Below are positions 9,310-22,643 of a DNA stretch of 64,000 nt, piece by piece. Position 1 is the first letter of the stretch; each line of letters opens with the position of its first letter. The position numbers were made by a program, and so were the translations under genes. Source of the DNA: Acidobacteriaceae bacterium (GTDB lineage Bacteria > Acidobacteriota > Terriglobia > Terriglobales > Acidobacteriaceae); contig JASHOC010000165.1 in NCBI GenBank assembly GCA_030041305.1, positions 1-64,000 on the forward strand. The letters are read 5' to 3'. The notes beneath the pieces are model-generated. The model ran no database searches. It worked only from the letters and a program-made list of their open reading frames with translations, and had not been told where the DNA came from.

Positions 9310-11517
9310 ATGAGCTCTTCCCCGGGAACACCCGTTCCCCCTTCTCCACAACCGGCGCTGGAGCTGATCTCTCTGGCCAAGATGTCACCCGAACAGGCGC
9401 GGCAGAATTTGCGCGCGCTTTTGCTCGCCAACCCCAACTATTTTGGCAACATTACCGGAAGCTCGTTTAAGGCCGTCCTGAACATCGAGGGAAACACCGA
9501 TTACGAGAGTATTGGATGCGTGGGTTATAACCCGCAGCTGCAACAGCTCCGGGCCACGATCGACATCAAGCAGACCAGCGGCTATTCCGGAGGTGTATGC
9601 ACCAGCGGCTCGGAAGAGTACGTGCGGTTTTATTTGTCGTATGACGGCGGCTCGACCTGGCAGGATCAGGGATTGCGCGCGGTGAACGTGTTCGACGTCC
9701 CCGGGCCCAAGCCGCTGGATTTCGCGGTGAATTTGCCTATCAGCCCGACCGAAGAGTTTTGTTTCACGCAGAACCTGCCTACAGTGCGCGCGATTCTGTC
9801 ATGGAATACGCCGCCTCCGCCGACTACGCCGGCCTGGACGCCGGTGTGGGGCAATGTGGTCGATGCGCGCATTCAGATTGAGGGCTTCGAAATCATCATT
9901 TTGGAAACGCTGCTGGCCGACGCCAAAGTGCAGTTACCCGAGGAAATTGCACAGGCGATCAATTTGAATCAGCCGATACACGCGGCGGCTCCGCAGCCGA
10001 TGAACGCGACAGATTTGCATCAGTTGTACAGCAGCACGAAGGTAGCGCCGCAGCGGTATCTGTCGGGCTTGCTGGCCGCTTCTACCGGGGCCTCGGTCTT
10101 TGCGAACCAGCTGGCGGCCCGGCCGGCCGCGACTTCCGCGCTTGCCGCGACGGCCAAGGCTGCGCCCGCGGCCTCCTTCGGCGGGATTACGGACATCGAC
10201 CTGAATGCCGTGGTGGAAGCCTGGCTGAACACCAACGGCGACACCTCCTATGAGCAGATGGAGTGCGTGGGCCTGGACCCAAACGCCAGCCAGTTAGCCG
10301 GCGTGCTCGAAATCAAACAGGGCAGCGGCTATGGCGGAGGGCCGTGCACGGCTGGAAGCACAGAGTTTGTGGCGTTCTGGGTAGATTGGGGATCGGGCTG
10401 GGAATATGCGGGCACAACGTCAGTAGGCGTACATGACTTCAGCTCGATCCCGGCCGGCGGATTGCAGTACAACGTTTTTCTGCCGGTGAATCTTCTCGCG
10501 CATCAACAGCCGTGCGCAAAAGGCCCGCAAACGGCCAAAGTGCGCGCGGTGCTCTCATGGAACACGCCGCCGTCGACCACCAATCCCAACGCCCCGGTGG
10601 TTTGGGGCAACAGCGTGGATGGACTGATCCTGATCCCGCCCGGCCAGGCCATTGGCGAGGGCCAGCAGGTTCCGTTCCTGAGCGCAGTGGGTGACGTGGA
10701 CACGACGCTGATTGGCGGGGACGGCCTGATCACGAGCGCGACGACGATCACCACCGGAGCATATTACGCGGATGCTCCCTTCGGTGGAAGGATTACGCTG
10801 GCGGGGCAGATCTCGAACCCGGCGCCGGGCATGCTGTATCGCATCATGAAGGCGCCGCACGGGTCATCGGCTTTTGCGCCCGTGGTGAATGAGCCTGCCG
10901 GACTCACGCTGACCCTGAACGTGTTCAGCGGCGGGGTGTGGACGGAGAGCGAGCAGACGTTCCACGCCAATGCGGAGGGCTATTACCCGTACCAGGACTA
11001 CTCGCCGGACCACACCGTGGTGGGACATTTGCTGGGGGTGTGGTACTCCACGGTGGCCGACACCGGCTACGCCTACGACGTGCGCGTGGATTTGTACAAT
11101 GCGCCGAATCCCGATATCGAGAGCAACGTGGTGACGGTGCTGGTGAACAACGCGACGCCGGTGGCCACGCTGACGCCGACCTTTGGCGAATGCGGAAAGG
11201 TGGCGCCGGGCGACACGATCACGGGGACGTTTACGGCGACGGCCACGGATTTTGGCTCCTTCGGGTTTACCATCCTGCCTCCAGGACCCGCGAACGGCGT
11301 ACTGCCGTCGCCGGCTTCCGGAGTCTCGAACGAACTCGGAGGGACGATTTCCGATCCGGGCGTGACCAGCGAAGCATTCACGCTCAACACCACGGGCATG
11401 GATCCTTGCGGCTACTCCCTGACTGTCGGGGTGTGGGACCGCACTAACGTCAACAGCGGCGAAACCAGCAATTACAACCAGGCGTCGGCCGGCTTCTGCC
11501 TGCAAACGGGAAGTTAG
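9310..11517 (+). CDS. Uncharacterised protein with an internally duplicated ~140-150 aa domain
   Basis: Two homologous blocks: FKAVLNIEGNTDYESIGCVGYNPQLQQLRATIDIKQTSGYSGGVCTSGSEEYVRFYLSYDGG...VRAILSWNTPPPP...VWGNVVDARIQI and LNAVVEAWLNTNGDTSYEQMECVGLDPNASQLAGVLEIKQGSGYGGGPCTAGSTEFVAFWVDWGSG...VRAVLSWNTPPS...VWGNSVDGLILI. Confidence 0.85.
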   Translation: MSSSPGTPVPPSPQPALELISLAKMSPEQARQNLRALLLANPNYFGNITGSSFKAVLNIEGNTDYESIGCVGYNPQLQQLRATIDIKQTSGYSGGVCTSGSEEYVRFYLSYDGGSTWQDQGLRAVNVFDVPGPKPLDFAVNLPISPTEEFCFTQNLPTVRAILSWNTPPPPTTPAWTPVWGNVVDARIQIEGFEIIILETLLADAKVQLPEEIAQAINLNQPIHAAAPQPMNATDLHQLYSSTKVAPQRYLSGLLAASTGASVFANQLAARPAATSALAATAKAAPAASFGGITDIDLNAVVEAWLNTNGDTSYEQMECVGLDPNASQLAGVLEIKQGSGYGGGPCTAGSTEFVAFWVDWGSGWEYAGTTSVGVHDFSSIPAGGLQYNVFLPVNLLAHQQPCAKGPQTAKVRAVLSWNTPPSTTNPNAPVVWGNSVDGLILIPPGQAIGEGQQVPFLSAVGDVDTTLIGGDGLITSATTITTGAYYADAPFGGRITLAGQISNPAPGMLYRIMKAPHGSSAFAPVVNEPAGLTLTLNVFSGGVWTESEQTFHANAEGYYPYQDYSPDHTVVGHLLGVWYSTVADTGYAYDVRVDLYNAPNPDIESNVVTVLVNNATPVATLTPTFGECGKVAPGDTITGTFTATATDFGSFGFTILPPGPANGVLPSPASGVSNELGGTISDPGVTSEAFTLNTTGMDPCGYSLTVGVWDRTNVNSGETSNYNQASAGFCLQTGS

Positions 11518-11630: not shown

Positions 11631-11727
11631 ACCGGCTTCCCCCAAAAAGAGCGGACGGAGTTCCTTGTTCCCCTGTATCCCCTCGAGGACCTCTGCCCGC
11701 GCCACCCAACCGCCTAGACGGAGCGCG

Positions 11728-12126
11728 ATGGACGGCTACGGCCCAATATGGCGATTCGTTCTTTCCGCGCTGGCGGTCTGGCGGGTGACTCACCTCCTTG
11801 CCGAGGAGGACGGCCCATGGGATTTGGTGGCGCGTGTGCGTGGAGCACTGGGCGACGGCTTTTGGGGGCGTTTGATGGACTGTTTTTATTGTCTTAGCCT
11901 TTGGATTTCTCTCGCGATTTCCATCTGGCTGGCAAGCGGCTGGATAGGAATCCTTCTCCACTGGCAGGCCCTTTCGGGCGCGGCCTGCTTGTTGGAGAAG
12001 GCGACTAACAGAGCAAAAGGCGAAACGGGATCTGGAGAGATGGCCGCAGCGCAAATTGCGGCTCTCGAGATCGCAGATGACCGGGGAGACACACCATGTG
12101 TTGTGGTCAAAAGAGAAGCGCGATGA
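11728..12126 (+). CDS. DUF1360-like small membrane protein
   Basis: MDGYGPIWRFVLSALAVWRVTHLLAEEDGPWDLVARVRGALGDGFWGRLMDCFYCLSLWISLAISIWLASGW; conserved W-R-x-T-x-L and C-x2-C-x2-W pattern. Confidence 0.7.
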   Translation: MDGYGPIWRFVLSALAVWRVTHLLAEEDGPWDLVARVRGALGDGFWGRLMDCFYCLSLWISLAISIWLASGWIGILLHWQALSGAACLLEKATNRAKGETGSGEMAAAQIAALEIADDRGDTPCVVVKREAR

Positions 12127-12317
12127 AGGCGAACGGCGCTCCCCACCCAACGGCAATCAAGCTGCTCTACCGCGGGCAAATTCCGATCGCCGTTCGTGGC
12201 TCGGTGACGGGCCAGGTTTACCAGTTTGCGACGCGCTACTCGGCGCAGCTGGTGAACCCGCTGGACGCAACCGCCATGACGCAAACGAGGTTGTTCAAAC
12301 AAATCCCATGGCGATAG
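12096..12317 (+). CDS. Small MCCGQ-type hypothetical protein
   Basis: MCCGQKRSAMKANGAPHPTAIKLLYRGQIPIAVRGSVTGQVYQFATRYSAQLVNPLDATAMTQTRLFKQIPWR; overlaps both flanking genes; an alternative start at 12123 makes an ATGA junction. Confidence 0.6.
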   Translation: MCCGQKRSAMKANGAPHPTAIKLLYRGQIPIAVRGSVTGQVYQFATRYSAQLVNPLDATAMTQTRLFKQIPWR

Positions 12318-13045
12318 ATCACCCATCCCCCCACAGCCACGGGGAGCACGGCAACGGCGCCGAACGGCGGATGCGTCCCCCGGCGTGCGGATACACGCAC
12401 GGGTTTGCGTCGCAAAACCCGATGGTATACTTGCGTCCTGGTGAAATTGCGGGGCGCGTTTTGCGATTCCAAGCCTTTGATGCGGATTACGTCGCGAATC
12501 TCTGCGCCGGAGACGTGCGCACGCAGGAGCACTTTGCCAGCTACTTCACGGAGTTGCTGCATCTCAAGCTTCGTTCGCGGCTCAAGTCTCCGCAAGCCAT
12601 CGAGGACGTGCGTCAGGAGACCTTCGCACGCGTATTGGCGTCGCTGCGCAAGGAGGGGACGATCCAACGGCCGGAGCGGCTGGGCGCCTTCGTCAATGCG
12701 GTTTGCAACAACGTTTTGTTTGAACATTACCGCGCTTCGGCGCGCAGCCAGTCCCTGGACGGGGAAGGCCAGCCGGAGTTGCCGGCGGCGGACGCGGATA
12801 TTTTGGCCGCTCTAACCACCAAGCAGCTGCAGAGCAAAATTCGGGAGGTTCTGCTGCAGATGCCCAGCCGCGATCGGGACCTGCTGCAAGCCGTGTTTCT
12901 GGAGGAACGGGACCGGGACGAAGTTTGCCGCGAATTCGGCGTGGACCGGGAATACCTGCGCGTCCTGCTGTTCCGGGCGAAACAAGAGTTCAAGAACGAA
13001 TATCTGAAACGGCTGGGCGCGGGCGCATATGCGGGAAGGAGTTGA
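12308..13045 (+). CDS. RNA polymerase sigma-70 family (ECF-type) sigma factor
   Basis: LKSPQAIEDVRQETFARVLASLRKEGTIQRPERLGAFVNAVCNNVLFEHYR (region 2) and LLQMPSRDRDLLQAVFLEERDRDEVCREFGVDREYLRVLLFRAKQEFKNEY (region 4). Confidence 0.9.
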   Translation: MAIDHPSPHSHGEHGNGAERRMRPPACGYTHGFASQNPMVYLRPGEIAGRVLRFQAFDADYVANLCAGDVRTQEHFASYFTELLHLKLRSRLKSPQAIEDVRQETFARVLASLRKEGTIQRPERLGAFVNAVCNNVLFEHYRASARSQSLDGEGQPELPAADADILAALTTKQLQSKIREVLLQMPSRDRDLLQAVFLEERDRDEVCREFGVDREYLRVLLFRAKQEFKNEYLKRLGAGAYAGRS

Positions 13046-13103
13046 AACGACCGGGCAGGCAAATTCACCATTTCAATAGGTGCAACCACCGGGGATGGAT
13101 GCC

Positions 13104-13787
13104 ATGAATCATAACGAAGCCAAAGAACAAATGGCGGTGGAACGGTACCTGTTGGATGAGCTCACGCCGGAACTCCGCGAGTCCTTTGAAGAGCACTATT
13201 TTGACTGTCCGGAGTGCGCCCTCGATTTGCGCATCGGGGCGGCGCTGGTGGACGAAGCAAAAGCTTTGCCGCGGGAAGCGCCTTCAGCCGCGGCCGCGCC
13301 GCCAACCACGCCGGGCCCCGAGGCCAGGAAGCCAAAGGTGCTTCTGTGGTGGCGGCCGGTTTTCGCCGCACCGGCCTTCGCGTTGTTGGTAGGTGTGATT
13401 GCGTACCAGAACCTGGCCACCTTGCCGGCGCTGCGAGAAGAAGCGGCGCAGCCAAGGCTTCTGCCCTGGACGCTGCTGCATGCGGAAACCAGGGGTGGCG
13501 GACCCCTGGTGGTGCAGGCCGATCGCACCCAAGGCGCAGTGCTGCTGATCGATCTTCCCCAGGACTCGGCCGATACATCTTATGCCTTCGATCTGTACAA
13601 TGCCCATGGCAAACGGATCTGGACGGAAACGGCAGAAACCCTGGGCGAGGGACGGACGGTTTCCATCCTGATTCCCGGCCCCGCGCTCGAGGAGGGGTCG
13701 GATATGCTGGCCATCTCCGGCATTGCCGCCAACGGGGAGCGGACGGAAATCGACCGGCGGAGTCTCGACATCCACTTTGCGAAATAG
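13104..13787 (+). CDS. Anti-sigma factor with putative zinc-finger (HxxxCxxC) and one TM helix
   Basis: MNHNEAKEQMAVERYLLDELTPELRESFEEHYFDCPECALDLRIGAALVDEAKAL; TM-like PVFAAPAFALLVGVIAYQNLA; immediately after the sigma gene. Confidence 0.82.
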   Translation: MNHNEAKEQMAVERYLLDELTPELRESFEEHYFDCPECALDLRIGAALVDEAKALPREAPSAAAAPPTTPGPEARKPKVLLWWRPVFAAPAFALLVGVIAYQNLATLPALREEAAQPRLLPWTLLHAETRGGGPLVVQADRTQGAVLLIDLPQDSADTSYAFDLYNAHGKRIWTETAETLGEGRTVSILIPGPALEEGSDMLAISGIAANGERTEIDRRSLDIHFAK

Positions 13788-13823
13788 AATCATTCCAGCT
13801 TTTTGAAAGAGGGTGTGCACCCG

Positions 13824-14663
13824 ATGCCAGAAGAAACCGAGAGGGAACATTTTTATTACGCAGAGGCCAGCGCGCTTGCCGGCGAATTGCGGCTGCCGCT
13901 GGTCCAGGAGATCAAGCCCCAACTGTACGCCAAGCTGCCCGAGCGCGGTGGTTATTTGTCGCATCGCGCCTGCGAGTACCAGCTGGAGGGAGTCATTTCC
14001 TTTCGGTCAGCATACACGCAGGTAGCCGGCAACCGCGACCTCAAGCCCGGCCACGGTTGGAGCACGCTGGCGACCTCGTCGATCGAAGACCTGAATGTGC
14101 TGGATGTGGTGACGGCGGACCGGGTGGTGGGGCAGCTCTCCACGGAGCACCCGCTGGTGGGCTATGTGCCCAAGGTCACCTTTCTCGGAACCCGGTTTGA
14201 GAACTTGCGCATCGCCGGACATCCGGTAAAGCTGGATTTGGACCCCAATCTTTTGGGCGAAAAGCTGGAAAACGATGCGGGGTATGGAAGCCACCCGGGC
14301 TTTCTTGAGCGGCTCGCCAGTCAATTTGAACGGATCGGCGCAAATTCCGGTCTTCCGGGAGAAGTATCCGAGCGCTATAATCGACTCCCGTCCAGCACCG
14401 ATGCCCCGGAGTCGATCGAATGCTCATTGGTGAACCAAGCGGAGGGTTCTTTTCCCGGGCGATGCTTTGGCCACGTGATCGACGTGCCGGATTTCGGGAG
14501 AATCTACCTCGCCACTTTGCGTTTGGAGCAGTCGGACTTCCAAAATGGAGTCCCAAAGCGGACGCTGATCAATCTGACGATGATCGAGTTGAAGCTGGGC
14601 TGCGTGGCGAACGGATCGGTCGGAATCGGCAACCCGATCGTCAACGGGCATACAAAGCCGTAG
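13824..14663 (+). CDS. Conserved hypothetical protein of the sigma/CHAT cluster
   Basis: Long high-quality ORF between anti-sigma and CHAT genes, same strand: MPEETEREHFYYAEASALAGELRLPLVQEIKPQLYAKLPERGGYLSHRACEYQLEGVISFRSAYTQVAGNRDLKPGHGWSTLATSSIEDLNVLDVVTADRVV. Confidence 0.75.
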   Translation: MPEETEREHFYYAEASALAGELRLPLVQEIKPQLYAKLPERGGYLSHRACEYQLEGVISFRSAYTQVAGNRDLKPGHGWSTLATSSIEDLNVLDVVTADRVVGQLSTEHPLVGYVPKVTFLGTRFENLRIAGHPVKLDLDPNLLGEKLENDAGYGSHPGFLERLASQFERIGANSGLPGEVSERYNRLPSSTDAPESIECSLVNQAEGSFPGRCFGHVIDVPDFGRIYLATLRLEQSDFQNGVPKRTLINLTMIELKLGCVANGSVGIGNPIVNGHTKP

Positions 14664-17122
14664 CCTGGCTGGCTGCGGCATGCGTTGCGCTTGTCCCCCT
14701 GCGCGGCGATCGTGCGCCTTCCGCCGCGGCCGATTTCGCCCGGACCTACTTGCTGTTTCAACATGGACAACTGGAGACCAGCCAGAATCTGGCCGCAGGG
14801 TTCGTGAAACGGTTTGGGAGGGCCAGCCCGGAGTGGGCGGCCAGGTTCAGAATCCTCGAGGCGGAATCGGCCGCCTGGCGGGGATTCGACCCGGTGGTGC
14901 TGGCGACGCTTTCCGACCTCTTTCCTGCTCTCGACAATCCTGAGATCCAGATCCGGCGGCTCTCACTTTTGGCCCAGGCGCATGCGCACCTGCATCAGTT
15001 CGACCAGGCCGACGGCGAATTGCGGCAGGCGCTGGACATGTGCTCGGCGCTCAATGCGGCCGAGTGCAGCAAAGCGTTTGAAGCGCAGGCGGGCCTGGCC
15101 ATCGAGCGGGGAAACTATGGGCAAGCCTTCGGCTCCTATGCGCAGAGTTTGACGGTGGCCCGCCAGTTCGGGCAGCCTTTCGACGAAGCGGAAGCGCTGA
15201 TGAACCTGGCGGTGGCCTGCATGCTGGAAGAGCGCTTCGACGAGGCCATCGACTGGCTGCGCGCCTCCAATCTCGTGGCGGAGACGCTGGACGCGGAAGA
15301 CATTCTTCTGAACAACACCGGCAATCTGGGTTGGGCGTATTACCGGCTGGGCGACCGGGTGAAGGCGCTGGGATTGTACGAGGACGCCGAGAAGCGCGCT
15401 ATGGCGCTGGGCGATATCGATGGCGCGATTACCTGGATCACCACCGCGGAATATGTGTACCAGGATTCGCACGACCTGGCGCAGGCGATGAGCTCGTACC
15501 GCGAAGCGCTCAAGCTGGCTTGGACCATCATGAATGAAGACGACATTGTCAACTCGCTGGAGGCCCTGGCGCATGTCTCGGTGGAAGAGGGCAAGCTGAA
15601 CGAAGCCGACGAGTATCTGCGGCAAATTGGCCCTTTGATGCGCGAGAATCCCAATCGTCTTGACGTGCTGGACGTGATGCTGGCGCAGGGGAGAATCGTG
15701 GCGGCGCGGGGCCAGGATGCGCAGGCGGAATCGCTGTTCCGGACGGTGGAAGGCGACCCGGCGAGCCAGACTTCGATGCGCCTGGGAGCGCAACACGAGC
15801 TGGCCAAGCTCTACGAATCCGAGGGCCGCGGCGGTGAGGCGGAACAAATGTACCGGGCTACGCTGACCACCTTCGAGTCGGCGCGGGCGCAGCTCAAAAA
15901 CGAAGACTCCCGGCTGCCGTTTTTGGCCAACGCCGCGGAGATTTACGACGATTACATTGGATTCCTGGTGAAACAAGGCGAAACCGATGAAGCCCTGAAG
16001 GCAGCCGACCAAAGCCGCGCGCGAACCCTGGCGCAGGGGCTGGGGCTGGCGTCGAACAACCAGGCGTTCAAGCCCGCGGTCCTTCACCCGGCGGAGATTG
16101 CGCGGAAAGCGGAGGCAACGCTGCTTTTCTATTGGCTGGGCGAGAAGCAGTCGTATCTTTGGGCGATTACTCCGGCAAAGACGGTTATGTTCCCGCTGCC
16201 GCCGCGGAGCCGAATTGAGCCGCGGGTCGAGCGGTATCGCAAGGCGTTGCTGGGACCGAACGATGCGCTCGATCCGGCCAATCGGGATGGAGTGGCTCTC
16301 TATCGCATGCTGATCGAGCCGGCGCGGAATCTGATCGCGCCGGAGGCGAAGGTCGTGGTCTTCTGCGATGGAGCGTTGAGCGAGCTCAATTTCGAGACCC
16401 TGATTGCGCCGGAGCCCAAGCCGCACTACTGGATTGAGGACGCGACGGTAATCTCCGCTCCGTCGCTCTACCTGCTTGCGGCGGCCAAGCCGCCGGCGGA
16501 GCCGGACCATACTCTGCTTTTGATCGGAGACGCGATTGCGCCGAACCAAGAGTTTCCCGTGCTGCCGAAAGCCAGCTTGGAGATGCGGGAGATCGAGCGG
16601 CACTTCGCGACGGAGAATGCGACCGTCTTTGCGCGTCAACGGGCGAATCCCCGGGCATATCTGGCCAGTTCACCCGGGCAGTACTCGTACATTCACTTCG
16701 TCGCCCATGGCGTGGCCAGCAGCACCGACCCGCTGGACTCGGCCATCATTCTTTCCCGCGCCAACCCGGGAGCGGATTCCTTCAAGCTCTATGCGCGGGA
16801 AATCATTCAGCATCCCATTCATGCGCGCCTGGTGACCATTGCGGCCTGCGATGGCAGCGGGGCGCGCTCCTATGCAGGGGAGGGATTGGTGGGGCTTTCC
16901 TGGGCGTTTTTGCGGGCGGGCGCCCACAATGTGATCGCCGCGTTATGGGAGGTGAGCGACGATTCGACTCCGCGCCTGATGGATGCGCTCTATCAGGGCC
17001 TCGCCGAGGGATTGTCTCCCAGCGCCGCGCTGCGCCGGGCAAAACTTGAGCTGCTGCGCGGGCAAGGCGCTTTTCGCAAGCCGTTTTTCTGGGCGCCGTT
17101 TCAGATTTACACCGGGCTATAG
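14420..17122 (+). CDS. TPR-repeat CHAT domain (caspase-like) protein
   Basis: TPR-like helical repeats, then CHAT: YSYIHFVAHGVASSTDPLDSAIILSR...HARLVTIAACDGSGARSYAGEGLVGLSWAFLRAGAHNVIAALWEVSDDSTPRLMDALYQGLAEG. Coordinates are the full ORF; true start is unclear and probably near 14600-14650. Confidence 0.88.
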   Translation: MLIGEPSGGFFSRAMLWPRDRRAGFRENLPRHFAFGAVGLPKWSPKADADQSDDDRVEAGLRGERIGRNRQPDRQRAYKAVAWLAAACVALVPLRGDRAPSAAADFARTYLLFQHGQLETSQNLAAGFVKRFGRASPEWAARFRILEAESAAWRGFDPVVLATLSDLFPALDNPEIQIRRLSLLAQAHAHLHQFDQADGELRQALDMCSALNAAECSKAFEAQAGLAIERGNYGQAFGSYAQSLTVARQFGQPFDEAEALMNLAVACMLEERFDEAIDWLRASNLVAETLDAEDILLNNTGNLGWAYYRLGDRVKALGLYEDAEKRAMALGDIDGAITWITTAEYVYQDSHDLAQAMSSYREALKLAWTIMNEDDIVNSLEALAHVSVEEGKLNEADEYLRQIGPLMRENPNRLDVLDVMLAQGRIVAARGQDAQAESLFRTVEGDPASQTSMRLGAQHELAKLYESEGRGGEAEQMYRATLTTFESARAQLKNEDSRLPFLANAAEIYDDYIGFLVKQGETDEALKAADQSRARTLAQGLGLASNNQAFKPAVLHPAEIARKAEATLLFYWLGEKQSYLWAITPAKTVMFPLPPRSRIEPRVERYRKALLGPNDALDPANRDGVALYRMLIEPARNLIAPEAKVVVFCDGALSELNFETLIAPEPKPHYWIEDATVISAPSLYLLAAAKPPAEPDHTLLLIGDAIAPNQEFPVLPKASLEMREIERHFATENATVFARQRANPRAYLASSPGQYSYIHFVAHGVASSTDPLDSAIILSRANPGADSFKLYAREIIQHPIHARLVTIAACDGSGARSYAGEGLVGLSWAFLRAGAHNVIAALWEVSDDSTPRLMDALYQGLAEGLSPSAALRRAKLELLRGQGAFRKPFFWAPFQIYTGL

Positions 17123-17658: not shown

Positions 17659-18999
17659 CTAATGCGCAAAGAACTCGCCGTGTCCGCCGTTGGCCCAGGG
17701 GTCGTAATGGGCGGCGAAGTTGGCGCGGGTCTGCGTGCTGGGGTGGTCGTACAGCCAGAACTCGATGAAAGGATTGGGGCGCGGGTCTTCGAGCCAGGCT
17801 TCGCCGAGATGGTTGAAGGCGGCGACTGCGGTTTTTTGCGGGTCGGGCACGATGCCGTGAATCGCCTCCTGGCCGTAGATGTCGGCCTGGTGCTCGAAAT
17901 GGCGGCTGAAGGCGTTCGAGGCGGGCTGTAACAGGAAGGCGGCGATGGAGATGACGAAGAGAAGCACCACAAAGCCGGCGCGGGAGGAAAGCTCTTCGAT
18001 ATGCCAGCGGGCGCCGAAGCGGCGAACCAGCCAGGAAGCGCAGGCGGCGCAGCCCCAATAGACAAAAAAGAGGGCGACGGCGTAGCCGGCGAGCATTTTG
18101 GGAATGTGATGGAGGACGTAATGGCCGCTTTCGTGGCCAAAGACGAAGAGGACTTCATCGTCGGGAATGCGGCCGGCGGTGGTGTCCCAGACCACGATGC
18201 GCTTGGTGGCCCCGATGCCGGAGACGTAGGCGTTGAGGCCGTTCGTCTTAAGGCTGGCTTTCATCAGATACATGCGGTTGGGCGGGATGTTGGTTCCGGT
18301 GCGGGCGACGACTTGTTCGAGCTCCTGGACGAGCTGGGGATAGTGTTGGTTGAGGGGCTCGAACTTGTTAAAGATGGGCTCAAGGAGCGGTTCGACAAAG
18401 AGCGTGAGGACCAGAATGGGCAGGGTGGCGATCCACACGCCGAACCAGTAGCGGCGCGGCCAGCGACGCACGATCCAGTTGAAGAGCAGAAGAACCAGCG
18501 TGCCGATGACGAGGGTGAGGCCGAGAGCCTTGGCTTGGTCGCCGAACCAACCGCCCCAACCCTGCACGCTGATGCCGTAACCGCGGCTGACGTGCTGGCC
18601 GTACCAGTCGAAGGGAAGGCTGGCAAGGGTGGTGAGGAGGAAGAAGGCGAAGAAGAAGACGACGCCCTGCACCCAACGGCGCGCGGTGATGCGCTTGGCC
18701 CAGGCTTCGATCCCGGACCAGGCATGGGTGGCGAGCAGAATCCAGAGAAAGACAATGCCCCAGATGGCGCCGGCGATTTCCAGAATGTCGCGAATGCGGC
18801 TGAGGGCGACGGCTTTGGCGAGCTTATCGGGGGAAAGCGTGTAGGCCTGCTGGGTGTTGGCGTTGGCGGGCGGCGCGGCGGCCGTTGACGCCGGAGTGGA
18901 CGGGCTCGCGGGCGCCTGAGCAGATAGGGGCAACGGGGCAAGGCCGGCGAGCAGGAAGGCGCAACAACCCGCGAGCAGCAACGAACGTGCAAATTTCAT
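17659..18999 (-). CDS. M48 family metallopeptidase (membrane-associated)
   Basis: DDEVLFVFGHESGHYVLHHIPKM (HExxH); several TM segments; signal-like MKFARSLLLAGCCAFLLAGLAPL. Confidence 0.92.
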   Translation of the reverse strand: MKFARSLLLAGCCAFLLAGLAPLPLSAQAPASPSTPASTAAAPPANANTQQAYTLSPDKLAKAVALSRIRDILEIAGAIWGIVFLWILLATHAWSGIEAWAKRITARRWVQGVVFFFAFFLLTTLASLPFDWYGQHVSRGYGISVQGWGGWFGDQAKALGLTLVIGTLVLLLFNWIVRRWPRRYWFGVWIATLPILVLTLFVEPLLEPIFNKFEPLNQHYPQLVQELEQVVARTGTNIPPNRMYLMKASLKTNGLNAYVSGIGATKRIVVWDTTAGRIPDDEVLFVFGHESGHYVLHHIPKMLAGYAVALFFVYWGCAACASWLVRRFGARWHIEELSSRAGFVVLLFVISIAAFLLQPASNAFSRHFEHQADIYGQEAIHGIVPDPQKTAVAAFNHLGEAWLEDPRPNPFIEFWLYDHPSTQTRANFAAHYDPWANGGHGEFFAH

Positions 19000-19134
19000 A
19001 GGAAGTCTCCTCTTGTGAGCCAATCTCTGCGACAATCGAGCATACCGATGCTTTTTCCCAAAATTCCAGGATCGATTCCCAAGAATTGTAGTGCGTTCGG
19101 GCAGCGAGGCGCCGCAGTGCGCTGGTGTGCGGCC

Positions 19135-19251
19135 TTCCGGCGAAACCAGAGATTTTGTACCCCGTTAGGACCAGCGAAGGGTCGCCGCTCCTTGAGGTCG
19201 CGTCGACTTGAATGTGCGGCTTCGAGACACACTTTCTCTGGTTTCGCTATA
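19135..19251 (+). repeat. Family B palindromic element, copy 2
   Basis: TCCGGCGAAACCAGAGA...TCTCTGGTTTCGCTATAGC; 13-bp perfect stem 19140-19152/19235-19247; interior alignable to 8151-8267. Confidence 0.7.
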
Positions 19252-19266
19252 GCAGCCCTCACGGCG

Positions 19267-20970
19267 GTGTGGGTGTTTCCTGCAGCCGGCGTGACGCAGC
19301 AGCCCGATCCGCTCCTCGATGCAATGACGGCGGAGCTCCACCGGGCGTTTACTTCGCTCGGCAAAAAAGGCGATGGGCAGGGCGACGACAAGCAATTGCC
19401 GCCGTATTTCCTCAGCTACTCCGTGAGCGACGCGAGTTTCGTTTCGATTCGCGCGGAGTATGGCGCGCTGATGGGGAGCAGCGCCAATCACGAGCGCATG
19501 GCCGACGTGCAGGTGCGCGTGGGCAGTCCCAAGCTCGACAACACGCACGGCGACCACCGCAGCTCGGCGGTGAACAGCATGCAGTTGCCGCTGAATGACG
19601 ATCGCGAGGCGCTGGCGCGCTCGCTGTGGCTGGGGACGAATTCCGGCTACGGAAACGCCATTGACAATTACCTGCGCGTGAAGACGGAGGCGCAGGTGCG
19701 CGCCAAGGAGGAGGACACTTCGCCCGACTTCAGCGAGGAGGCGCCGCAGGTGCATATCGGCAAAGCGGCCCCGCCGGTGGAAGTCGACCGGGCGGCCTGG
19801 GAGCAGCGGGTGCGGGCGCTTTCGCGCGTTTTCCGCGATTACCCCGATGTGTACCAGAACATGGTGGCGCTGACGGCGCAGAACGAAACGGATTATTACG
19901 CTTCGTCGGAGGGTTCAAAGGTGGTAACGCCGCACCTCGAGGCGCGGCTGGTGGTGATGGCCGCGACACGCGCCGACGATGGCATGGATTTGTATCGCGA
20001 CCAGACTTTCGAGGCCGAGACGGCGGATGGGCTGCCAAGCCAGAAGGAGCTGGAGTCGGCGGTGGGCAAATTGGGCGAGAGCCTGGAAGCGCTGCGCCAG
20101 GCGCCGGTGACGGAGCCGTTCGACGGCCCGGCGATCTTGTCAGGCCGCGCGGCGGCGGTGTTCTTTCATGAAGTGCTGGGCCACCGGCTGGAGGGCCAGC
20201 GCCAGCGCGGCGAGGAAGAGGGCCAGACGTTTACGAAGGACGTGGGCACGGCGGTGTTGCCCAGCTTCCTTTCCGTGGCCGACGATCCCACCGAGACCAA
20301 ATTCGGCGGCACGTGGCTGAGCGGGAGCTATGAATACGACGATGAGGGAGAAAAGGCGCAGCGGGTCAATCTCATCGACGATGGAGTGCTGAAGACGTTT
20401 CTCATGTCGCGGCTGCCCATCGCCAACTTCAGCTCCTCAAACGGGCACGGGCGCGCGGAGACAGGACATATTCCCACAGGACGGCAGGGAAACTTGATTG
20501 TAACCTCAGCGAAGACGGTTCCCGAGGCCGAGTTGCGCAAGGAGCTGATCGCCGAAGCGAAACGGCAGGGCAAACCATACGGGCTGTATTTCGAGGACAT
20601 CTCTTCGGGCTTCGCGCTCACCACGCGCAGTTCGCCGCAGGCGTTTTCTGTGGTTCCGCTGGTGGTGTGGCGGGTGTATGTGGATGGCCGGCCGGACGAA
20701 CTGGTGCGCGGCGTGAGCATTGTGGGCACGCCGCTGGCAGCGATGAAAAGCATTCTGGCGACCAGCGACCGCAGCGAGGTGTTCAACGGCATTTGCGGAG
20801 CGGAATCGGGGTCGATCCCGGTGAGCGCGGTGGCGCCGGCCATGCTGCTGAGCGAACTGGAGACGCAGAAGGAGGAGCAAGGCACGGCGCGGCCACCGAT
20901 CTTGCCGATTCCGGGGGCGGACGAAAAGCAGGAATCAACGACTGGCAGCGGAACCGGAGGCGCGCGATGA
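19267..20970 (+). CDS. TldD/PmbA family metallopeptidase, active-type (HEVLGH), probably secreted
   Basis: GRAAAVFFHEVLGHRLEGQRQRGEEEGQTFTKDVGTAVLPSFLSVADDPTETKFGG. ORF is open from 19015; start uncertain, GTG at 19267 is one option, but an upstream start would complete a signal peptide (FSGFAIAALTAVWVFPAAG). Confidence 0.85.
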   Translation: MWVFPAAGVTQQPDPLLDAMTAELHRAFTSLGKKGDGQGDDKQLPPYFLSYSVSDASFVSIRAEYGALMGSSANHERMADVQVRVGSPKLDNTHGDHRSSAVNSMQLPLNDDREALARSLWLGTNSGYGNAIDNYLRVKTEAQVRAKEEDTSPDFSEEAPQVHIGKAAPPVEVDRAAWEQRVRALSRVFRDYPDVYQNMVALTAQNETDYYASSEGSKVVTPHLEARLVVMAATRADDGMDLYRDQTFEAETADGLPSQKELESAVGKLGESLEALRQAPVTEPFDGPAILSGRAAAVFFHEVLGHRLEGQRQRGEEEGQTFTKDVGTAVLPSFLSVADDPTETKFGGTWLSGSYEYDDEGEKAQRVNLIDDGVLKTFLMSRLPIANFSSSNGHGRAETGHIPTGRQGNLIVTSAKTVPEAELRKELIAEAKRQGKPYGLYFEDISSGFALTTRSSPQAFSVVPLVVWRVYVDGRPDELVRGVSIVGTPLAAMKSILATSDRSEVFNGICGAESGSIPVSAVAPAMLLSELETQKEEQGTARPPILPIPGADEKQESTTGSGTGGAR

Positions 20971-22643
20971 GGCGGAACGGCTCAATTTTGTGGGTGGTGG
21001 GGTTGGGATTGCTAAGCTTGAGCCTCAGCGCGCCGCGCTTGGCCGCCGCCCAGCAGACGCGCGCCGAAGCGGAGAAAGACCCCGTGCTCAAAGCCATGCT
21101 CGAGGAGATGGATCGAAGCATGAGCCAGTTGCAGTTGAAGGGCTTCGAGAAGCCGTTCTTCATCCAATACCGCATTGAGGACGTGGACGACTACTCGACG
21201 CGCGCGGAATTCGGAGCGAGCGAAGGCTCAGACCGCGTGCGCCAGCGCGTGGCGCGGGTCACGGTGCGCGTGGGCGATTACAAGACCGACAGCTCCGGTG
21301 GACGCGGCGATGGGTCGCTGGTGATTGCGGCGCTGGACGACGATCCGATTGCGATTCGCTCGGCGTTGTGGGACGCAACGGATCGGGCGTACAAGAGCGC
21401 GCTGGTGGCGTACGCGCAAAAGCAGGCCGCGCTCAAAGAGGTGCAAACGCCGCCGCAGGCCGACGACTTCAGCCATGAGAAGGCGATCGTTTCGCTGGCC
21501 TCGCCGGCAAGCTTAGAGCTGGATGAGGCGGCGTGGGCCAGTCGCGTGGCGCAGGCGAGCGGGATTTACCGGGCGGATGCGAAGGCGAAAGCGGCCGATG
21601 GGGATGTCGAATACTCGACCGCGGATTTTCATGCGCGGGCCACGACGAGCTGGCTGGTGACGAGCGAGGGAACCATTGTGCGCAAGGCGGAGACGGAATA
21701 CCAGGAGAGCCTTGCCGTGGGCGCCCAGGCCGCAGACGGGATGCGGCTGGACCGCTCCTATGCATCGACGGCGAACTCGCTTGAAGGTTTGGATGCGCCC
21801 CAAAAGATGGCGCAGCACGCGGTGGCGCTGATTGCGTCGCTTGAAGATTTGCGCAAGGCGCCGCTGGTCGACGAGGAATATCACGGACCGATCCTGTTGA
21901 GCTCGGACGCGGCGACTGAAGTGGTGCGTTCGCTGCTGGCGGGTGGGGTCGGGGCCACGCGCCCACCGCTCGGCGCCGAGGCGCGGACCAATGGGCCCTT
22001 TGCTTCGAGCTATCAGACGCGGGTGTTGCCTGAGTTCATGGAAGTGGTCGACGATCCGGGATTGAAGAGCTACGACGGCGTGGGCCTGGTGGGCGCGTAC
22101 GACGTGGACGATGAAGGCGTGCCGGCGCAGGCCGTGAAGCTGGTGACGGATGGGCGGCTCGAGAACTATCTTGTATCGCGCGAACCGGTAAAAGATTTTC
22201 CGCAGTCGAACGGGCATGGGCGCTCCGGAATCGCCGGCGCCGCGCGGCCCTCGATGGGCGTTCTGAAGGTCTTGGCGGTGAACGGGCTTTCGGACGAGGA
22301 ATTGAACCGCAAGCTGCTCGCGCTGGGCAAAGACAACGGCCTCCAAAGCGTCTACTACGTGGAAACCATGGGCGGCGCACGCGCGCCGCGACTGCTCTAT
22401 CGCGTAGGCCTGGACGGCAAACGCGAACTGGTGCGCGGAGCGGTGCTCGACGATGTCGACCAGCGAACGATGCGCACGGGCGTAACGGCCGCGGGAAGAG
22501 ATCTGCTGGTGACCAATTATTTCGGCGACGTGCCCACCACGGTGCTCGCTCCGGCGCTGCTGCTCGACGACGTCACGGTGCGGCGGGCGAACGAGAAGAA
22601 TGAGAAGCTGCCGTTTTATCCGCCGCCTGCCAGCGGTCAGTGA
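20967..22643 (+). CDS. TldD/PmbA family paralog lacking the HExxxH motif
   Basis: Signal peptide MRRNGSILWVVGLGLLSLSLSAPRLAAA; co-linear with the upstream protein (RVLPEFMEVVDDPGLKSYDGVGLVGAYDVDDEGVPAQAVKLVTDGRLENYLVSREPVKDFPQSNGHGRSG); ATGA overlap with the upstream gene. Confidence 0.85.
   Translation: MRRNGSILWVVGLGLLSLSLSAPRLAAAQQTRAEAEKDPVLKAMLEEMDRSMSQLQLKGFEKPFFIQYRIEDVDDYSTRAEFGASEGSDRVRQRVARVTVRVGDYKTDSSGGRGDGSLVIAALDDDPIAIRSALWDATDRAYKSALVAYAQKQAALKEVQTPPQADDFSHEKAIVSLASPASLELDEAAWASRVAQASGIYRADAKAKAADGDVEYSTADFHARATTSWLVTSEGTIVRKAETEYQESLAVGAQAADGMRLDRSYASTANSLEGLDAPQKMAQHAVALIASLEDLRKAPLVDEEYHGPILLSSDAATEVVRSLLAGGVGATRPPLGAEARTNGPFASSYQTRVLPEFMEVVDDPGLKSYDGVGLVGAYDVDDEGVPAQAVKLVTDGRLENYLVSREPVKDFPQSNGHGRSGIAGAARPSMGVLKVLAVNGLSDEELNRKLLALGKDNGLQSVYYVETMGGARAPRLLYRVGLDGKRELVRGAVLDDVDQRTMRTGVTAAGRDLLVTNYFGDVPTTVLAPALLLDDVTVRRANEKNEKLPFYPPPASGQ

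Follow-up and report, generated by a model that had tools for sequence, protein, structure and literature searches.

Two described systems place a TPR-CHAT protein, with tetratricopeptide repeats (TPR) and a caspase-like CHAT domain, in the control of a sigma factor of the extracytoplasmic function (ECF) type. In Myxococcus xanthus, DdvA keeps the ECF sigma factor DdvS inactive (PMC4374960), and DdvS controls an antiphage island with a cyclic oligonucleotide-based antiphage signaling system (CBASS) and a type III-B CRISPR system (PMC12288465). In the CRISPR-bound Craspase of type III-E, Csx29 cleaves Csx30, an inhibitor of a sigma factor (PMC10028731). Here, we describe a four-gene module in which an ECF sigma factor, a zinc-type transmembrane anti-sigma factor, a beta protein of about 280 amino acids (P0003), and a TPR-CHAT protein are encoded in that order on the + strand, as the initial annotation of this DNA had stated. 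The module lies in the first 64,000 nucleotides of contig JASHOC010000165.1 from an Acidobacteriaceae bacterium (assembly GCA_030041305.1); this whole stretch is referred to as the window, and positions are given within it. No earlier description of the acidobacterial operon was found in a literature search, and the module is apparently undescribed. Its four genes are as follows.

12461-13045, + strand: ECF sigma factor, 194 amino acids, TTG start at a conserved place (TIGR02937, 1.8e-12)
13104-13787, + strand: transmembrane anti-sigma factor, 227 amino acids, with an N-terminal zinc domain, one transmembrane helix, and an outer domain of about 120 amino acids (zf-HC2, 4.3e-5; weak RskA_C)
13824-14663, + strand: P0003, a 279-amino-acid beta protein, choice_anch_P-like, without a signal peptide (NF040603; AlphaFold2 pLDDT 92.5)
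14420-17122, + strand: TPR-CHAT protein, 900 amino acids, with a disordered Arg-rich leader (residues 1-73), a membrane segment, TPR, and CHAT (CHAT, 1.2e-50; AlphaFold2 pLDDT 83.6)

A Foldseek search with the model of the TPR-CHAT protein ranked DdvA first (8rw5, 1.1e-16), followed by the Csx29/TPR-CHAT protein of Craspase (3.7e-15) and then separase. When the CHAT domain alone was used with phmmer, DdvA again came first, weakly, with the His and Cys residues aligned. Our description of DdvA draws on Protein Data Bank (PDB) titles and on two papers. Like DdvS/DdvA, the module has an ECF sigma factor under a transmembrane anti-sigma factor linked to a TPR-CHAT part. However, DdvA carries the anti-sigma and TPR-CHAT parts on one chain, whereas here they are encoded by separate genes (13104-13787 and 14420-17122), the anti-sigma factor has an outer domain of its own, and a fourth protein, P0003, accompanies them in nearly all cases, its gene overlapping that of CHAT by about 240 nucleotides. 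Moreover, no antiphage island was found next to the module, and none of its four proteins has a convincing match to a defense family. That a single DdvA chain holds both parts favors the view that the separate genes here work together, and by this analogy the module appears to be a split relative, in design, of DdvS/DdvA.

Other arrangements of these parts occur in the same class. At locus L244 (3649-8170), an ECF sigma factor, a zf-HC2 anti-sigma factor, and a CHAT protein with a signal-peptide-like N-terminus lie in a row; at L243 (5020-8955), the order is CHAT, sigma, anti-sigma; and at L245 (5213-8617), a CHAT protein bears an N-terminal HxxxCxxC motif and may, judging by this motif, be a DdvA-like fusion.

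The initial annotation had drawn an analogy with Csx29. It holds for the parts, since both systems link a TPR-CHAT protein with His and Cys to an ECF-type sigma factor, CASP-sigma in the case of Craspase, and its inhibitor. It does not extend to type III-E membership: the Csx29 family model scores the CHAT protein at 16.4 bits, far below its cut-off of 300, and no RAMP (Cas7-type) protein was found in the genome. In addition, Csx29 is RNA-guided by Cas7-11, whereas the CHAT protein here has a membrane anchor and a probable periplasmic site.

Conservation of the four-gene order

A scan with an alignment of the CHAT protein covered 85,462 species genomes and returned 80 loci, all in Acidobacteriota, with genera that include Occallatibacter, Terracidiphilus, Acidicapsa, Granulicella, Silvibacterium, Edaphobacter, and Sulfotelmatobacter. 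All four genes stand in order on one strand at 68 of these loci; nine are cut by a contig end, leaving 71 that are informative, and three are real exceptions. The link among these genes, first proposed from the order in the window, is therefore well supported, and the neighborhood analysis of CHAT homologs, in which unlinked CHAT genes were to count against it, retained the linkage. Cultured relatives with such a locus include Edaphobacter lichenicola (L157) and Granulicella aggregans (L137). Among 61 relatives searched, P0003 was found in 22 genomes, all of one genus and always with a CHAT ortholog adjoining (in genome G007 a contig break separates the two). Twenty of these loci were checked: all four genes are kept in order at 18, the contig of one ends short of the sigma gene, and L060 is without the usual sigma/anti-sigma pair. 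A class-wide sample of 299 genomes from 106 genera widened this range: 75 genomes in 32 genera carried P0003, and of 39 loci inspected, 33 had all four genes, with contig ends cutting three of the other six. The order thus extends to distant Terriglobia, and its conservation far exceeds chance expectation, so that the cluster is not a chance arrangement.

At L060 (10591-12440, the same locus as L094), a different ECF sigma factor and a transmembrane TPR protein with a Cys-rich N-terminus lie upstream on the same strand. These have possibly replaced the usual pair.

Predicted topology of the proteins and proposed control of the anti-sigma factor

The sigma protein scores 47.2 against a TIGR02937 cut-off of 42.9 and has sigma-70 regions 2 and 4 only, as ECF sigma factors do, with both Pfam region matches (r2 and r4) below cut-off. 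Its start codon is conserved at 12461 across 66 loci (TTG in 56, GTG in 9, ATG in 1), and the start at 12308 given in the initial annotation is not upheld. TTG at 56 of 66 loci is an unusually steady use of a weak start codon.

The anti-sigma factor, its transmembrane helix, and the parts of the TPR-CHAT protein on which the topology depends are located as follows.

13350-13418, + strand: predicted transmembrane helix of the anti-sigma factor, a conserved hydrophobic stretch followed by YQN...P.L, placed by eye
14639-14692, + strand: predicted membrane anchor of TPR-CHAT, residues 74-91 (model helix; hydrophobic segment)
14723-16039, + strand: TPR superhelix, residues 102-540 (model helices, TPR_12 matches)
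16289-17110, + strand: CHAT caspase-like domain, residues 624-897 (PF12770)
16706-16708, + strand: catalytic-type His763 (HFVAHG), invariant
16847-16849, + strand: catalytic-type Cys810 (AACDGSG), invariant

The description of the second gene product as an HxxxCxxC anti-sigma factor with a transmembrane segment was borne out: the zf-HC2 match is over cut-off, the motif is present, and one transmembrane helix is predicted. Residues M1, H3, H31, C35, and C38 are present in all 62 aligned sequences, and the zinc ligands are H3, H31, C35, and C38, in a spacing that we take to resemble that of ChrR. The HxxxCxxC motif with an N-terminal ligand, the single transmembrane helix, and the adjoining sigma gene place the protein among zinc-binding anti-sigma (ZAS)/class I transmembrane anti-sigma factors.

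In the TPR-CHAT protein, His763 and Cys810 are invariant in 60 aligned relatives, and both residues are kept in 69 of 69 sequences of a second alignment (there numbered H703 and C750 of P0004), so the catalytic-type motifs noted at the outset are indeed intact. Together with PF12770 and the Foldseek matches to Csx29 and separase, these residues identify a clan CD peptidase fold. Because the two residues never vary, the protein is likely an active peptidase. In 69 proteins, the mean charge around the hydrophobic segment is +3.9 before it and +0.1 after it, 61 of them agree with an N-in orientation, and 29 have a lipobox-like Cys. Both features point to a TPR-CHAT part outside the inner membrane, where it most likely faces the periplasm beside the outer domain of the anti-sigma factor. 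From this predicted membrane-anchored position, CHAT could reach only the outer part of the anti-sigma factor and not its sigma-binding part.

P0003, in contrast, is by its sequence a cytosolic-looking protein: its family has neither a signal-peptide-like hydrophobic N-terminal segment nor a transmembrane helix. It had been called uncharacterized, which remains true of Pfam, where it matches no family. It does match the NCBIfam domain choice_anch_P (NF040603) at 28.6 bits against a cut-off of 27, as do 50 of 63 relatives (E 0.01). Choice_anch_P proteins are exported and have a C-terminal surface anchor, whereas P0003 has neither signal peptide nor anchor and sits in a sigma/anti-sigma operon. 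Its AlphaFold2 model is confident and all-beta; a fold search against the PDB gave no confident match, a search of solved sequences gave none either, and no copy was found on plasmids. The C-terminus is a conserved NGxTxP strand. As for its role, an adaptor at the inner face of the membrane or an output of the module would be our guess.

Based on these observations, our best explanation, which we hold to be about evenly poised between right and wrong, is that the module is an envelope-signaling set of Terriglobia in which a periplasmic TPR-CHAT protein controls the anti-sigma factor extracytoplasmically, in the manner of DdvS/DdvA but split among genes. The TPR-CHAT protein would form the outer arm of the switch, acting in the periplasm on the outer domain of the anti-sigma factor by cutting or binding. 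On sensing an envelope or phage-type signal (envelope trouble is probably the input), it would inactivate the anti-sigma factor and thereby free the sigma factor. The simplest route would begin with a cut in the stalk or outer part of the anti-sigma factor and continue with M50 intramembrane and Clp proteolysis; M50 proteases that could make the second cut are present in the genome. In this working model the system would resemble RseA/DegS/RseP, with a membrane anti-sigma factor, an outer-side protease, and release of sigma, except that the first protease, whose cleavage is putative, would be caspase-like (clan CD) and not a serine protease. Cleavage of the anti-sigma factor by CHAT is plausible.

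Several points weigh against this explanation. The conserved Arg residues in the stalk of the anti-sigma factor are not universal in the alignment, so no cleavage site is evident. P0003, without a signal peptide or transmembrane helix, should not meet a periplasmic CHAT domain. Two loci, L119 and L133, carry a CHAT ortholog without the other three genes. Finally, DdvA may work without proteolysis, and CHAT could lie on the output side of the module instead of regulating it; each of these last two points leads to a reading of its own.

If DdvA is the better guide, the TPR-CHAT protein could control the anti-sigma factor by binding only, as a sensor or scaffold exerting DdvA-like conformational control, with the protease used on another substrate or elsewhere. 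DdvA, the top structural relative, is itself an anti-sigma factor and not a known protease for one, and both of its parts sit on one chain. The invariance of His and Cys in 69 sequences suggests, on the other hand, that catalysis matters, and we regard control by binding only as unlikely, though a serious contender.

Alternatively, the sigma factor and zinc anti-sigma factor could answer to some other signal and switch on TPR-CHAT and P0003 as their output, a periplasmic caspase-like protease with a role in cell fate or defense. ECF sigma factors often count their own operon among their targets, and TPR-CHAT and P0003 lie downstream of the sigma/anti-sigma pair in one array. The control of an antiphage island by DdvS in Myxococcus (PMC12288465) would also fit. 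However, the promoter does not readily support this arrangement. It contains the following element.

12423-12431, + strand: extended -10-like element TGnTATACT, about 30 nucleotides 5' of the sigma start, with TATACT at 12426

A -10-like hexamer occurs within 60 nucleotides upstream of sigma at 52 of 66 loci, mostly 34-40 nucleotides from the start, compared with 2.4% of shuffled sequences. The promoter-motif search for autoregulation suggested initially thus did find a conserved motif, but one that resembles a housekeeping (sigma-70-like) extended -10 and is not evidently of ECF type; on these grounds, ECF autoregulation is not supported. Because the DdvA fusion also places TPR-CHAT upstream in the signal path, we consider the output role rather improbable.

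The overlapping start of the TPR-CHAT gene

The hydrophobic segment of CHAT is often encoded immediately at the stop codon of P0003, where the vicinity offers no usable start codon. The CHAT gene in the window begins instead at ATG 14420, inside the P0003 gene, which gives the 900-amino-acid protein, and the two genes share the following features.

14420-14663, + strand: out-of-phase overlap of 244 nucleotides between the 3' end of P0003 and the 5' end of CHAT, -1 frame open at 53 of 56 loci
14408-14411, + strand: GGAG, a Shine-Dalgarno-like site 8 nucleotides 5' of the CHAT start

Relative to P0003, CHAT is in the -1 frame at 59 of 68 loci, and the P0003 motif xCSLV always gives an NTG codon in that frame. 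Expectations for the overlap were obtained by resampling the synonymous codons of P0003 and testing the -1 frame from NTG to the P0003 stop. The frame was open over this interval at 53 loci where 3.0 were expected, whereas the +1 frame, examined as a control, was open at a single locus (1.2 expected). The codon before the Cys ends in A, which makes the NTG an ATG, at 39 loci versus 14.0 expected (standard deviation 2.9). On the 5' side of the NTG the reading frame is closed: it is open at 2 of 52 loci (0.8 expected). A Shine-Dalgarno-like motif accompanies the CHAT start at 24 of 52 loci versus 15.3 expected, a modest excess. Of seven loci at which CHAT has shifted to a different frame and uses a start of its own, six have a closed -1 frame, and the ATG is, as a rule, lost. 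The same picture emerged from a second set, drawn from more distant genomes: the -1 frame was open at 9 of 9 loci versus 0.8 expected, with 6 A-ending codons versus 1.4 expected. The loci do share ancestry, but fourfold-site identity among them is 0.34-0.50, so synonymous sites are nearly saturated and a handful of recent copies does not account for the signal. The 244-nucleotide out-of-phase overlap is under selection, and the codon pattern indicates that CHAT is translated from the start codon within P0003. The overlap, with coupled translation, suggests that P0003 and TPR-CHAT would be made in proportion.

Conservation of the amino acid sequence encoded by the overlap was considered and rejected, as fourfold sites are not more conserved there (0.50 versus 0.49). 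The leader, predicted to be disordered in the AlphaFold2 model, thus appears to be filler or only weakly constrained. Two other starts were also rejected: an NTG 63 nucleotides before the P0003 stop, which several clades lack (LGS in place of LGC) and which shows no selection for ATG, and reinitiation at the P0003 stop, where many loci have no start codon. Separately, extra DNA exceeding 1 kb separates P0003 from CHAT at L097, L102, L125, and L140, where other candidate CHAT starts occur just before the hydrophobic segment.

Programmed -1 ribosomal frameshifting would dispense with an internal start and produce a P0003-TM-TPR-CHAT fusion (TM, transmembrane segment). The prevalence of the -1 frame would suit such a mechanism, as would the 28 loci that have no ATG, GTG, or TTG near the membrane segment. 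Yet no slippery site was found and no slippery heptamer is conserved; the frame opens at an NTG selected for ATG and is closed upstream of it; and the open frame has disappeared at loci with decoupled CHAT, generally together with the ATG. The start-codon evidence therefore points elsewhere, and we regard frameshifting as very improbable.

Genomic surroundings and significance

Upstream of the sigma gene lie a beta-rich protein of 735 amino acids that contains an internal repeat and matches no Pfam family (9310-11517), a DUF1360-like membrane protein (11722-12126, below cut-off), and a small open reading frame (12096-12317), with relatives near sigma at 14, 18, and 11 of 68 loci, respectively. 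On the other side, an M48 membrane metallopeptidase, encoded on the - strand, adjoins the module together with two PmbA/TldD-type proteins (17659-22643). That the four module genes are likewise ordinary neighbors with no joint function is hardly credible, for although the other two CHAT genes of the source genome, which served as a control, have no sigma factor beside them, the same four genes recur in the same order in numerous genera, even where CHAT identity falls to about 40%.

The gene overlap is the remarkable and unusual part of this module, which otherwise resembles, by analogy, the known DdvS/DdvA design. In a 2008 survey covering 338 genomes, no same-strand overlap longer than 60 bp proved real, and the longest genuine one was 56 bp (PMC2478687). 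Against that maximum, the overlap described here spans about 240 nucleotides on the same strand and out of phase, is conserved across genera, and is supported by codon-level evidence. Gene finders may shorten proteins that start in such overlaps or misplace their starts. We put forward only tentatively the full combination, in which the product of this overlapping gene would be a periplasmic, membrane-anchored, caspase-like site-1 protease of an ECF anti-sigma factor. Because the system is split, its regulator, protease, and substrate lend themselves to separate tests. More broadly, the module links TPR-CHAT proteins to sigma control beyond CRISPR and Myxococcus, throughout an entire class of bacteria that are abundant in soil.

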